This document shows, in pieces, positions 59,627 through 64,000 of a DNA stretch of 64,000 nucleotides. The first letter of the stretch is position 1. Each line of letters starts with the position of its first letter. The notes below the pieces were generated by a model. That model was not told the DNA's origin and made no database searches. It worked only from the letters and a program-made list of their open reading frames with translations. The position numbers and the translations under genes were made by a program. Source of the stretch: Stappia sp. WLB 29 (GTDB lineage Bacteria; Pseudomonadota; Alphaproteobacteria; Rhizobiales; Stappiaceae); NCBI RefSeq assembly GCF_023507705.1, contig NZ_JALBGD010000002.1, positions 248,001 through 312,000 on the forward strand. Direction: 5' to 3'.

Positions 59627-60547
59627 GTGTTCGAGCTGAAGGACGTGGAGATCCTCCAGGATATCGTCCGGGCAGGCGGGTTTCGCGCTGCCGCCGCGAA
59701 ATACGGGCTCTCGCAGTCGGCGATCTCGAACCGGGTTCTGGCGCTGGAAAAGCGCCTCGGCATCCAGCTGTTCGACCGTGGCCGCCGCCAGGTCCGCCTG
59801 ACGCCGGTCGGGCGCCGCTTCCTGGAGGAGGCGCAGCGGTTGAGCGCAGCACGGGACCGATTGATCCAGGAGATCACGCGGCCCGGTGGGCTGAGCGGTA
59901 CGATCCGCATTGGCGTTGCCGAGACCATCGTCCATACGATCTTGAGCGAATTGCTCAACCAGCTGAAAAGCGCCCATCAGCGGGTGCGCTTCGAACTGTC
60001 GGTCGATACTTCGCGCGAGCTCGGCCTGGCGCTGGCCGACGACGGGCTGGACGTCGCCATCATGCTGCGCGAGAGCGTGCCGAGCGGGGCGGCCGTGGTG
60101 CCGTTGCAGCGCCAGCCGCTCGGCTGGTACGGGGCTGCCTCCGACAAGGAAGGCGAGGATGCGGAGGCGGGCGAGCCGTTGACGCTGACCGACCTGGCCC
60201 GGCAGACCATCGTTTCCTTTCCCAAGGGCACGCCCCCGTTCCGCGAGCTGGAGGGGCTGCTGGCAGCCCCCGACCTGCCGCCGCCGGACCTGCACGGGTC
60301 GGCCAGCCTGTCCACCGTTCTGCATCTGGTGGCCGACGGGTTCGGGATCGGTGTGCTGCCGGTCCGTATTGCCGAGGCAGACCTTTTTCGCTCGCGGATC
60401 CGGCCGTTGAAGGTCGTGGACGGCGCCCGGCTAAGCGCCTTGCGGTTCGTCGTCGCCTACATGCCGGACCGGAATCGGGAGGTGGGAGAAGAGGTTGCGG
60501 CCGTCGCGCGTGCATGTGATCAAAATGATCTTGAAAGAAGATCGTAA
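59627..60547 (+). CDS. LysR family transcriptional regulator
   Basis: Regulator of 306 aa: N-terminal winged helix-turn-helix (FELKDVEILQDIVRAGGFRAAAAKYGLSQSAISNRVLALE) and a periplasmic-binding-like effector domain (about 90-295). The start is a GTG at 59627 behind AAGGGAGGG with six bases spacing; the ATG at 59558 lacks such a site. It stands between the divergent LysE-type exporter and, on its own strand, the D-glutamate cyclase/TRAP genes, so it may control either or both. The effector is unknown. Confidence 0.9.
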   Translation: MFELKDVEILQDIVRAGGFRAAAAKYGLSQSAISNRVLALEKRLGIQLFDRGRRQVRLTPVGRRFLEEAQRLSAARDRLIQEITRPGGLSGTIRIGVAETIVHTILSELLNQLKSAHQRVRFELSVDTSRELGLALADDGLDVAIMLRESVPSGAAVVPLQRQPLGWYGAASDKEGEDAEAGEPLTLTDLARQTIVSFPKGTPPFRELEGLLAAPDLPPPDLHGSASLSTVLHLVADGFGIGVLPVRIAEADLFRSRIRPLKVVDGARLSALRFVVAYMPDRNREVGEEVAAVARACDQNDLERRS

Positions 60548-60559
60548 AAATCTTATATC
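60531..60559 (+). promoter_or_regulatory. Putative sigma70-type promoter of the cyclase/TRAP operon
   Basis: TTGAAA at 60531-60536, a 17-base spacer and TATATC at 60554-60559 inside and just after the end of the LysR gene. Transcription would start near 60566, before the 60584-60621 hairpin. A second possible -35 box TTGACA lies at 60566-60571 but has no good -10. Confidence 0.35.
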
Positions 60560-60583
60560 GATAACTTGACAAGATCATAACGA

Positions 60584-60621
60584 CTGGCAATCCTCACGAG
60601 GTAACGTGAGGAGGTTGCCAG
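60584..60621 (+). promoter_or_regulatory. Hairpin sequestering the ribosome-binding site of the D-glutamate cyclase-like gene
   Basis: Near-perfect dyad CTGGCAATCCTCACG / CGTGAGGA-GG-TTGCCAG with a 6-base loop AGGTAA: 15 base pairs interrupted only by a two-base GG bulge in the right arm. The right arm contains the ribosome-binding site GAGGAGG (60608-60614), and the stem ends one base before the GTG start at 60623. As RNA it would hide the site; as DNA it could be an operator. Either way it is a strong candidate control element. Confidence 0.7.
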
Positions 60622-60622
60622 C

Positions 60623-61483
60623 GTGCCTGCATCTGTCGCCCTTGACCGCACCGTATCCGAACAGGATGCCTTCCGTGGTCTGTCTCCCGCCGATCTTCGC
60701 GTGAGCATCAGACAGGGCCGGTTCCGCGGCCCCACCGCCGGTTACGGCCAGGGCTGCCTCCAGGGGAACCTGGCGATCCTTCCGGCGGAGCTTGCCGGCG
60801 ACTTCCTGCGCTTCTGCACACTCAATCCCAAGCCCTGTCCGCTGATCGGCATGTCCGAGCCAGGCAATCCGGGCATTCCCTCGCTCGGGCGCGATCTGGA
60901 CATCCGTACCGACGTGTCCGGCTATCGCGTGTTCCGCGCGGACCAGGAGGGCTATACCCCGGTGCCGGACCTTGCAGAGGTCTGGCGCGAGGATCTCGTT
61001 GCTTTCGTGCTGGGCTGTTCGTTCTCTTTCGAGGCCGCCATCGTGCGGGCCGGCATTCCCCTGCCGCATTTCGAGGGCGGCAAGAACGTGCCGATGTACA
61101 TCACCAACCTGCAGACGGCGCCGAGCGGCCCGTTCGGCGGGCCGCTGGTGGTGTCGATGCGCTCCTTCCATCCTTCCGACGCGATCCAGGCGGTGCTGCT
61201 CTCCGACCGCTACCGACTGGCCCATGGCGCGCCGGTGCATATCGGCGATCCGGCCGGCATCGGCATTGCCGACCTGATGAAACCCGATTTCGGCGATGTT
61301 CCGGAGCTTGCTCCCGGTGCAATCCCCGTGTTCTGGGCCTGCGGTGTGACCCCGCAGATGGCGATCCGCCAGGCCCGTCCGGAGATCGCCATCACCCATG
61401 AGCCCGGCCACATGTTGGTGACCGATCTCTCTGCCGATGCCGCCGAATTCACGCTCGGCGGTGTCTGGCCCGCTTCGAAGTGA
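60623..61483 (+). CDS. D-glutamate cyclase family (DUF1445/UPF0317) putative hydro-lyase
   Basis: Protein of 286 aa matching the UPF0317 pattern: RQGRFRGPTAGYGQGCLQGNLAILP near the start, FCTLNPKPCPLIGMSEPGNP, DIRTDVSGYRVFRDxxxG-like, FVLGCSFSFEAAIVRAGIPLPH and the late VFWACGVTPQMAI...ITHEPGHMLVTDL. Some members convert D-glutamate to 5-oxo-D-proline; many remain uncharacterised hydro-lyases. It starts with GTG at 60623, its ribosome-binding site lying in the hairpin described above. A TRAP transporter operon follows 22 bases after its stop, suggesting joint use of an imported acid. Confidence 0.85.
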   Translation: MPASVALDRTVSEQDAFRGLSPADLRVSIRQGRFRGPTAGYGQGCLQGNLAILPAELAGDFLRFCTLNPKPCPLIGMSEPGNPGIPSLGRDLDIRTDVSGYRVFRADQEGYTPVPDLAEVWREDLVAFVLGCSFSFEAAIVRAGIPLPHFEGGKNVPMYITNLQTAPSGPFGGPLVVSMRSFHPSDAIQAVLLSDRYRLAHGAPVHIGDPAGIGIADLMKPDFGDVPELAPGAIPVFWACGVTPQMAIRQARPEIAITHEPGHMLVTDLSADAAEFTLGGVWPASK

Positions 61484-61505: not shown

Positions 61506-62549
61506 ATGAAGCGCATTGCCTCCAGCCTGCTCGCGGCCACGGCCCTGTCGTTTGCCGCATTCGCTCCGGCCTCGGCCGAAACGCTGTCCGTCGTCGGCAG
61601 CTGGTCCAACCTTCCCCTGCACCAGAAGTTCGAGGCTCCGTTCTGGACGGAGACCCTGCCGGCCGCGTCGAACGGCGGTATCGAGGTGCAAATGACCACC
61701 CACAACCAGATGGGCATCCAGGGCGGCGACGTGTTCCGCATGCTGGGCGACGGCGTGTTCGACGTCGGCATGACGGTTGCCGACTATGCGGTGGGCGATG
61801 CGCCGGAACTCGAAGGCCTCGATGTTCCGCTGATCGCGACCACCGCGGATGAGGCCCGCGCCATGGTTGCGGCTGCCCGTCCGATGGTCGAGGATATCTA
61901 CGAGCAGCGCTTCAACGCCAAGGTCCTGGCGATCGCGCCGTATCCCCCGCAGGTCGTCTTCTGCAAGGGTGACGTCTCCTCGCTGGAGGATCTGAAGGGC
62001 AAGAAGATCCGCGGTTCGGGTCGCATGACCACGAAGTTCCTCGAGGCGCTGGGCGCCGAGGGCGTCAACGTCGCCTTCTCGGAAGTGCCGGGCGCGCTGG
62101 AGCGCAGCGTCATCGACTGCGCCGTCACAGGTTCGGGCTCGGGCTACAGCGCCGGCTGGTGGGAAGTCACCGACACCTTGATGAACCTGCCGCTGGGCGG
62201 TTGGGACTCGGTGGTCACCGCCGTCAACCTCGACCGCTGGAACGCCCTGCCGGAAGAGACCCGTACCCTGATCGAGACCCAGATCAAGGAGAAGTTCGAG
62301 ACCCCGGCGTGGGATTCCGTGGCGGCCTCCGTCGCCACCGACACCGCCTGCCTGACCGGCAACGGCGAGTGCCCGGCCGGCAAGCCGGCTTCCATGAAGC
62401 TGGTCGAGGCGAGCGAGGCGGATGTCGCCACCGCGCGCAAGATCCTGACCGAGACCGTTCTACCGGAGTGGGCCGAGCGGGCCGGTGCGGACTGGGTGAA
62501 GCGCTGGAACGACAGCGTCGGCCAGACCACCGGCGTCACGGTCAACTGA
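61506..62549 (+). CDS. TRAP transporter substrate-binding protein (DctP-like)
   Basis: Periplasmic protein of 347 aa with a signal peptide (about 1-24, ending SASA). It starts with LSVVGSWSNLPLHQKFEAPFW, has the family pattern GKKIRGSGRMTTKFLEALGAEGV and the conserved ligand-contact region around SVIDCAVTGSG. Binds an organic acid and delivers it to the DctQM membrane proteins. AGAGGAG precedes the ATG. Its position after a D-glutamate cyclase-like gene suggests a ligand such as glutamate, pyroglutamate or a related acid; this is inference. Confidence 0.9.
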   Translation: MKRIASSLLAATALSFAAFAPASAETLSVVGSWSNLPLHQKFEAPFWTETLPAASNGGIEVQMTTHNQMGIQGGDVFRMLGDGVFDVGMTVADYAVGDAPELEGLDVPLIATTADEARAMVAAARPMVEDIYEQRFNAKVLAIAPYPPQVVFCKGDVSSLEDLKGKKIRGSGRMTTKFLEALGAEGVNVAFSEVPGALERSVIDCAVTGSGSGYSAGWWEVTDTLMNLPLGGWDSVVTAVNLDRWNALPEETRTLIETQIKEKFETPAWDSVAASVATDTACLTGNGECPAGKPASMKLVEASEADVATARKILTETVLPEWAERAGADWVKRWNDSVGQTTGVTVN

Positions 62550-62576
62550 TAGCGTGATCCAAGAGGGGGCCGCGAC

Positions 62577-63125
62577 ATGACGGACAATCTTGCCGCGGCC
62601 CTCCGCCGCATAAATTCCGGACTTGCCCTGCTGGTCGGCATCGTCGTGCTGGCGACCGCAGGCTTCGTGATCGTTGACATCACGCTCAGACAGTTCGGCC
62701 ATTCGTTCGGCGGTTCGGACGAAATCTCCGGGTATGTGATGGCCGCGGTCGCAAGCTGGGGCCTGTCCTATGCGCTGACCGAGCTTGCCCATGTGCGCAT
62801 CGATCTCGTCCGTCAGAAGCTGCAGACGCGAGGGCGGGCCATGCTCGACATCTTCGCGATGAGCGTTGCTGCCGGCACGGTCTGCATCATCGCCTATCAG
62901 GCCTGGCCGGTTCTGGAAAAGACGCTGGTCCGGGGGTCGCGGGCCAACACGGCCCTCGAGACGCCCCTGTGGATCCCGCAGGCGGTCTGGTTCTCCGGCT
63001 GGGTGTGGTTCGCCATCTCCTCCTGCCTTCTGGTCCTGCTGGCGCTGGCGACGGTACTGCGCGGCGATTTCGAGAACGCTGATGCGATGATCGGCGCACG
63101 CGGCGAAGCGGAGGACGGCAAATGA
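62577..63125 (+). CDS. TRAP transporter small permease (DctQ-like)
   Basis: Protein of 182 aa with four predicted helices: about 13-33, 45-65 (SGYVMAAVASWGLSYAL), 85-105 and 120-145. Layout and the charged motif LAHVRIDLVRQKL are typical of the small TRAP membrane subunit, which connects DctP and DctM. It overlaps the dctM gene by ATGA. Confidence 0.9.
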   Translation: MTDNLAAALRRINSGLALLVGIVVLATAGFVIVDITLRQFGHSFGGSDEISGYVMAAVASWGLSYALTELAHVRIDLVRQKLQTRGRAMLDIFAMSVAAGTVCIIAYQAWPVLEKTLVRGSRANTALETPLWIPQAVWFSGWVWFAISSCLLVLLALATVLRGDFENADAMIGARGEAEDGK

Positions 63126-64000
63126 TCGGAAGCGTCGCCATCGCTCTGCTCGGGCTGCTTTCGCTATCCATTCCGGTCGGCATCGTCCTGTTCCTGCTCG
63201 GCTTCGGTATTTCCGAGTTTTTCTCGGTCTTTCCGCTGATCCGTGGCCTCGGGCAGGTGGTCTGGTCGGCATCCGATTCCGCCACGCTGATCGCGATTCC
63301 CTTCTTCGTGCTGCTCGGCGAGATCCTTGTGCGCGGCGGCATTGCCGAGAAGACCTACGGCTCCCTCGACAAGTGGGTGTCCTGGCTGCCGGGCGGGCTG
63401 GTCCATGCCAATATCGGCACCGCCACCATGTTCTCCGCCACCTCCGGCTCCTCCGTCGCAACGGCCGCGACGGTCGCCACCGTGGCCATGCCCCAGGCCG
63501 AGCGGCTGGGCTACGATCCCAAGCTGTTTTCCGGGGCGATTGCCGCCGGCGGCACGCTCGGCATCCTGATCCCGCCGTCGATCAACCTGATCGTCTATGG
63601 CTTCCTTACAGAGACCTCGATCCCGCGTCTGTTCCTGGCCGGTCTCCTGCCGGGCCTGTTGATGGCGGTCGCCTTCATGATCGTGACGGCGGTCCTGTGC
63701 AAGATCTGGCCCGCGCTCGGCGGTCCGAGCCGCAGCTTCGGCTGGGGCGAGCGGTTCATGGCCCTCGTCCAGCTGGTGCCGATCTTCATCCTGTTCACCG
63801 TGGTGATCGGGTCGATCTACGCGGGCTGGGCAACGCCGACGGAGTCGGCCGCCGTCGGCGTCGCGATGGCGCTGCTGATCGCGCTGTTCAACGGCGGCGT
63901 CTCCTCCAGCATGCTGCGCGAGAGCCTGCTCGGCACCGTGCGCATCACCGCGATGATCATGCTGATCATCACCGGTGCCTATTTCCTCAACTTCACGCTG
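63122..64000 (+). CDS. TRAP transporter large permease (DctM-like), partial (3' end outside window)
   Basis: The frame begins at the ATG at 63122 overlapping the dctQ stop and is open to the window end, giving about 293 residues of a roughly 430-aa protein. Helices start at once (GSVAIALLGLLSLSIPVGIVL). Conserved segments include TLIAIPFFVLLGEI, TATMFSATSGSSVATAATVA and GTLGILIPPSINLIVYG, characteristic of DctM. It is the Na+-coupled channel subunit. The last third is outside the window. Confidence 0.92.
   Translation, partial: MIGSVAIALLGLLSLSIPVGIVLFLLGFGISEFFSVFPLIRGLGQVVWSASDSATLIAIPFFVLLGEILVRGGIAEKTYGSLDKWVSWLPGGLVHANIGTATMFSATSGSSVATAATVATVAMPQAERLGYDPKLFSGAIAAGGTLGILIPPSINLIVYGFLTETSIPRLFLAGLLPGLLMAVAFMIVTAVLCKIWPALGGPSRSFGWGERFMALVQLVPIFILFTVVIGSIYAGWATPTESAAVGVAMALLIALFNGGVSSSMLRESLLGTVRITAMIMLIITGAYFLNFTL

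Follow-up and report, generated by a model that had tools for sequence, protein, structure and literature searches.

The window, the whole 64,000-nucleotide stretch of Stappia sp. WLB 29 DNA that was analysed, carries near its right end a lysR gene that is codirectional with, and immediately 5' of, an operon of the cyclase-TRAP type. The first gene of the operon belongs to the family PF07286, named 'D-glutamate cyclase' in Pfam, and is referred to here as the cyclase gene, its activity being putative. Downstream of it come dctP, dctQ and dctM, which encode a TRAP transporter. On the minus strand, from 58810 to about 59439, lies a gene divergent from lysR which we take to resemble a LysE-type exporter, and the two may share a control region. 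The cyclase gene is present in 13 of the 14 genomes of the genus, and the genome of the exception is 89% complete. Its closest named match among the best 80 of 149 related loci, in Stappia indica, is 96% identical.

The short space between lysR and the cyclase gene holds a hairpin with a stem of 15 bp and a two-base bulge (60584-60621). The hairpin begins 37 nt past the final nucleotide of the lysR stop codon, with 36 nt intervening; its right arm contains the Shine-Dalgarno (SD) sequence GAGGAGG (60608-60614), and a single base (C 60622) separates its end from the GTG start codon at 60623. The original prediction had described this stem, its bulge, the GAGGAGG in the right arm and the one-base distance to the GTG, and all of these were confirmed to the base.

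Table 1. Genes and sequence features at the lysR-cyclase-TRAP locus (positions in the window)
Feature	Position	Strand	Basis or remark
lysR	59627..60547	+	HTH_1 and LysR_substrate domains; stop codon 60545-60547
Palindrome ATGATCTT-n5-AAGATCGT	60525..60545	.	centre 60535, at -66 relative to the predicted start; overlaps the lysR end
-35 hexamer TTGACA	60566..60571	+	TTGA conserved in relatives
Second half-site CAAGATCAT	60570..60578	.	inverted repeat with 60525-60533
Left arm CTGGCAA+TCCTCACG	60584-60598	+	sequence and RNA fold; only in RNA begun upstream
-10 hexamer AATCCT	60589..60594	+	within the left arm; nAnnnT at spacer 17 in relatives
Loop AGGTAA	60599-60604	+	holds the predicted transcription start, ~60601
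Right arm CGTGAGGA, bulge GG, TTGCCAG	60605-60612, 60613-60614, 60615-60621	+	sequence and RNA fold
Cyclase gene (PF07286)	60623..61483	+	E 3.4e-60; GTG start
dctP, dctQ, dctM	61506..64000	+	TRAP transporter; dctM continues past the window end

The hairpin is genuine and rare in its genome, although it is not unique. RNA spanning 60560-60650 (91 nt) folds with -35.2 kcal/mol (z = -4.36), and none of 200 shuffled sequences was equally stable. As controls, a simple script called 300 gene starts across 464 kb of this genome (the 64-kb window plus 400 kb). Against these, the fold of the cyclase gene from -40 to -1 (-23.8) ranks fifth of 300, and second of 113 among control starts with an SD score of at least 4. 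The pairing of the 28 nt 5' of the predicted transcription start with the leader ranks second of 300; some of the controls ranked above the hairpin look like mis-called starts. Near position 13397 of L183 (plus strand), just 5' of a called start among the controls, a GGGGCGGC-TTCG-GCCGCCCC hairpin is followed by GTTTCG, and is perhaps a terminator or a sign that the start was mis-called.

Promoter geometry and the predicted transcription start

Relatives were drawn from whole genomes and genome contigs, with loci taken from up to 30 matches per search and from the best 80 of 149 related loci; 20 of the family-level places without loci were added, all but G101:C59 and G099:C662. The LysR gene lies 5' of the cyclase gene in these relatives, in either a codirectional or a divergent orientation, and merging identical leaders gave a set with 42 codirectional loci. 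Five further codirectional loci, L189, L190, L191, L195 and L197, whose dctP is 33-42% identical, stand outside the tests.

Comparison of the relatives revealed a conserved promoter, TTGACA-N17-AATCCT (60566-60594). The TTGA-anchored motif nAnnnT occurs at spacer 17 in 31 of 38 codirectional loci (counted without L047, L153, L158 and L164) and in all 22 divergent loci, numbers perhaps flattered by the choice of the -35 by eye among TTGA matches. Other spacers, which serve as the control, gave 1/38 and 0/22 at spacer 16, 2/38 and 0/22 at spacer 18, and 2/38 and 17/22 at spacer 20 (codirectional and divergent loci, respectively). The seven codirectional loci that lack the motif at spacer 17 are L020, L028, L036, L038, L039, L040 and L117. 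Among the 300 gene starts of the same genome, TTGA-N19-nAnnnT followed by a leader of 10-35 nt was found at only two, those of the cyclase gene and of lysR itself. A scan of 60300-60900 in the window returned no sigma-70 sites because its -10 rule is stricter, and the promoter was recognised solely through the comparison of relatives.

The 17-nt spacer and the usual distance from -10 to +1 predict a transcription start near 60601, inside the hairpin loop. The operon's own mRNA would therefore lack the left arm, and its SD would be free. That the start removes the 5' arm is a prediction that rests on the conserved promoter spacing and on the position of an upstream palindrome.

Recognition sites of LysR-type regulators usually lie near -65, according to the available part of PMC11602165. 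Relative to the predicted start, the centre of the best upstream inverted repeat falls at -66 for the window locus and for 48 of 60 loci (exactly -66.0 in 29/40 codirectional and 19/20 divergent loci). Its sequence varies despite the fixed centre, for example TGATC..GATCA, TTATAAA..TTTATAA and GATAA..TTATC. From the sequence we infer that the second half-site, CAAGATCAT, is a possible activation site near the -35. The layout resembles that of LysR-type regulated promoters, with a palindrome near -65, a second site near -35 and a weak -10 (available parts of PMC11602165 and PMC8407307), but differs in that the -10 and start region would double as an anti-SD arm.

Pairing across relatives and the cost of opening the SD

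The right arm shifts register among relatives, and we therefore assessed pairing with a self-versus-cross test instead of alignment columns, in which the 28 nt 5' of the predicted start were joined either to the leader from their own locus or to that of a different one. For 22 codirectional representatives, self pairs averaged -9.93 kcal/mol and cross pairs -6.23 kcal/mol (z = -6.4; 0/20000 permutations); this comparison, which also covered divergent loci, was run without three loci with long leaders (L037, L043 and L142) and two divergent ones whose start was mis-called (L023 and L139). With 27 codirectional representatives the result was z = -5.5 (0/20000), and z = -3.8 (2/20000) when permutation was confined to GC blocks. 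Within Stappia alone, the true pairing was the best of 120 for five representatives and was matched in 32 of 20000 permutations for eight; ten codirectional loci from one other genus alone gave z = -1.75 (893/20000). Ten divergent representatives gave -8.37 for self and -7.57 for cross pairs, which is not significant (z = -1.15; 2624/20000). When the left segments were taken 15, 28 and 40 nt further upstream, z was -0.54, +0.73 and -0.36 for codirectional loci and -1.79, +0.52 and +1.44 for divergent loci.

The hairpin loop and arm sequences vary among relatives, and the arm pairs differ by locus: CTGGCAA/TTGCCAG and TCCTCACG/CGTGAGGA in the window, CCGCA/TGCGG in L007 and CGCTCTT/AAGAGCG in L036. 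L187 has a long leader, and there the arm base-pairs with the region of the start codon (CTTTCCAT/ATGGAAGG; 0/100 shuffles). The original prediction had proposed looking for compensatory changes in relatives; the self-versus-cross test shows pairing that is kept while the arms change, and the original claim that the right arm hides the SD gains support from the sequence, the RNA fold and the relatives. Column covariation in a MAFFT alignment of 13 rows (A1) was modest, with 55.4% of cells paired versus 50.3% after shuffling (3/500) and a covariation score of 0.202 versus 0.153 (10/500), although a slide of -3 columns scores higher (0.228). Taken across loci, the pairing has apparently been kept by evolution where lysR, the cyclase gene and the TRAP genes are codirectional.

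The computed cost of opening the SD and start codon at the window locus is 25.6 kcal/mol in read-through RNA versus 9.3 kcal/mol in the operon's own RNA; by fold and by opening cost, the SD of the longer RNA lies in a stable helix of the kind known from T4 gene e. Across 40 codirectional loci, the mean costs were 14.34 and 7.05 kcal/mol, computed with the start of L037 one base off; this set took L037 and L043 back in, added L185, L186 and L187 and still omitted L142. The corresponding means for 20 divergent loci were 10.24 and 5.68 kcal/mol. When the 40 nt preceding the start were dinucleotide-shuffled as a null, the excess of 27 codirectional representatives was 4.41 kcal/mol (Wilcoxon 5.2e-8), with 11 of the 27 singly at 0.05 or below and no excess in L020, L037, L131 and L186. 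The excess for ten divergent representatives was 1.34 kcal/mol (p = 0.12; one of ten singly at 0.05 or below), and the two orientations differed by Mann-Whitney (0.008). This contrast is modest, supportive and not decisive, because orientation changed only twice: the divergent state requires two changes on the tree of 60 cyclase rows. Divergent genus g2 had no significant excess pairing as a group, and one of its loci, L114, has a strong hairpin (1/100 shuffles).

Genus g26 comprises 12 loci (L014, L145, L147-L149, L151, L152, L154-L157 and L161) in which the LysR gene is divergent and dctP is only 32-36% identical. Its cyclase genes have strong SD-proximal hairpins, such as CCCAAGGA/TCCTTGGG in L014. 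A separate promoter, TTGGAC-N18-TGnACT, was guessed for this genus; its start is unsure because the palindrome lies at -66 in only 3 of the 12 loci. With that guessed promoter, seven representatives yielded an excess over shuffles of +0.88 kcal/mol (Wilcoxon 0.19), and the cross-pair test gave z = +0.77 (15567/20000). The hairpins lie mostly 3' of the guessed start, seemingly within the operon's own mRNA, and could represent a different layout with true translational control.

A predicted read-through silencer and its alternatives

Given a hairpin, a conserved promoter geometry and pairing that is kept as sequence changes, we favour a model, with a probability of roughly 60%, in which the hairpin is split by the transcription start and silences read-through messages. 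Our confidence in the anatomy of the hairpin is higher than in this predicted function; the start site, the read-through itself and the translational silencing are all predictions. In the model, the left arm includes part of the LysR-type promoter and RNA would start in the loop, such that the proper operon mRNA would carry a leader of 22 nt, leave its SD free and be translated. RNA derived from upstream would contain both arms, fold and hide the SD. In Stappia, the source of such RNA would most plausibly be the codirectional lysR, and the scan of 60300-60900 found no terminator-like site between it and the operon. When lysR is transcribed and the operon promoter is not activated, read-through RNA would fold with its SD hidden, and regulator transcription alone would therefore yield no cyclase or transporter. 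When LysR activates the operon promoter, RNA begun in the loop would allow translation. Because the hairpin lies 36 nt beyond the lysR stop codon, ribosomes finishing lysR should not melt it.

The original prediction instead took the hairpin to gate translation of the operon's own mRNA, in the manner of RNA thermometers and SD-sequestering riboswitches, which place an SD within a stem, or of a protein-bound translational operator. It named a start inside the hairpin, together with a dyad that no protein binds, as refuting its reading. A start of this kind, in the loop, is what the conserved promoter predicts, and it displaces the main interpretation as probably wrong. An own-mRNA role, which we now regard as unlikely, would require a start further upstream. 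The stable SD hairpin is consistent with it, and a promoter-like pair does exist upstream (TTGAAA-N17-TATATC, 60531-60559), with the same one in L002, L004 and L005. However, the -10 of this pair lacks the final T, the pair is missing from several Stappia loci (for example, L007, L009 and L012) and it overlaps the LysR-type palindrome, whereas the constant spacing belongs to the downstream promoter. Loop and arm sequences are also unconserved. A thermometer or riboswitch is further disfavoured by the predicted absence of the left arm from the operon's own mRNA and by the lack of any Rfam family above its gathering score; the one sub-threshold match was CRISPR-DR31 (16.6 bits versus a gathering score of 35).

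It is also improbable that the hairpin chiefly serves to mark or protect the lysR mRNA at its 3' end, or to end that mRNA with Rho, with the SD overlap a consequence of the short intergenic space. The 36-nt distance from the lysR stop codon and the restriction of significant excess pairing to loci with codirectional lysR would fit this explanation, but the right arm coincides with the region of translation initiation, including the start codon region in L187. Moreover, a scan of 60300-60900 found no terminator-like site and no T-run follows the stem; an intrinsic terminator of lysR was rejected, there being no G+C-rich stem with a T-run in that interval. Chance complementarity between -10 elements ending in CCT and the AGG of the SD is a weaker candidate: cross pairs do average -6.2 kcal/mol, but self pairs beat cross pairs that share both motifs (0/20000; 2/20000 within GC blocks). 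Least probable is binding of a repressor or LysR to the hairpin sequence as a DNA dyad; the original prediction had likewise proposed a dyad for a regulator. A near-perfect dyad does span the start region of the promoter, but a DNA operator is very unlikely because the arms vary widely among Stappia species whose LysR orthologues share 70-99% identity with the LysR encoded in the window, and another palindrome further upstream holds the fixed place.

Known relatives of the proposed mechanism and its implications

The principle of an RNA helix whose presence depends on the promoter is documented in phage T4, and the chromosomal LysR-TRAP operon would be a variant of it. In the available part of PMC3014915, the longer early RNAs of T4 gene e fold into an inhibitory helix that cuts synthesis of lysozyme 100-fold; transcripts initiated at late promoters a short way upstream are missing the 5' portion of that helix. 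The leaders of gene e, soc, 49 and I-TevI resemble the present case in that the helix of an upstream-started RNA hides the SD and/or the start codon (same source). Unlike these infection-timed phage genes, the locus described here is a chromosomal LysR-TRAP metabolic operon with a predicted sigma-70 type promoter and a predicted start.

Insertion sequences offer a second parallel, with IS10 and IS50 protected in a way similar to IS200. In IS200, one stem-loop ends impinging transcripts and another occludes the ribosome-binding site (available part of PMC3196728); the likeness lies in a stem-loop over the ribosome-binding site that guards against impinging transcription. These systems protect the transposases of mobile elements, whereas here a host operon lies behind its own regulator gene. 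A literature search of partial coverage found no chromosomal operon of the start-split design, although we do not claim its absence from print, and the available parts of PMC4265352 and PMC12428005 contain nothing relevant on read-through hairpins.

More tentatively, and with considerable doubt, start-split hairpins may be a general form of insulation in bacterial chromosomes wherever transcription of a regulator gene runs on into the operon it controls. Selection would then equip the target promoter with an anti-SD arm; only RNA begun there could be translated, and expression of the target would no longer be tied to that of the regulator. One implication is a caution: without a known start site, an SD hairpin deduced purely from DNA can be misleading. 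If the insulation idea is true, such hairpins could be screened for wherever start sites have been mapped, and they would provide a compact insulator for gene circuits. The -10 region would carry a second message, the anti-SD arm, and translation would depend on the promoter from which an RNA originates, which would explain how codirectional regulator-target pairs escape leaky expression.
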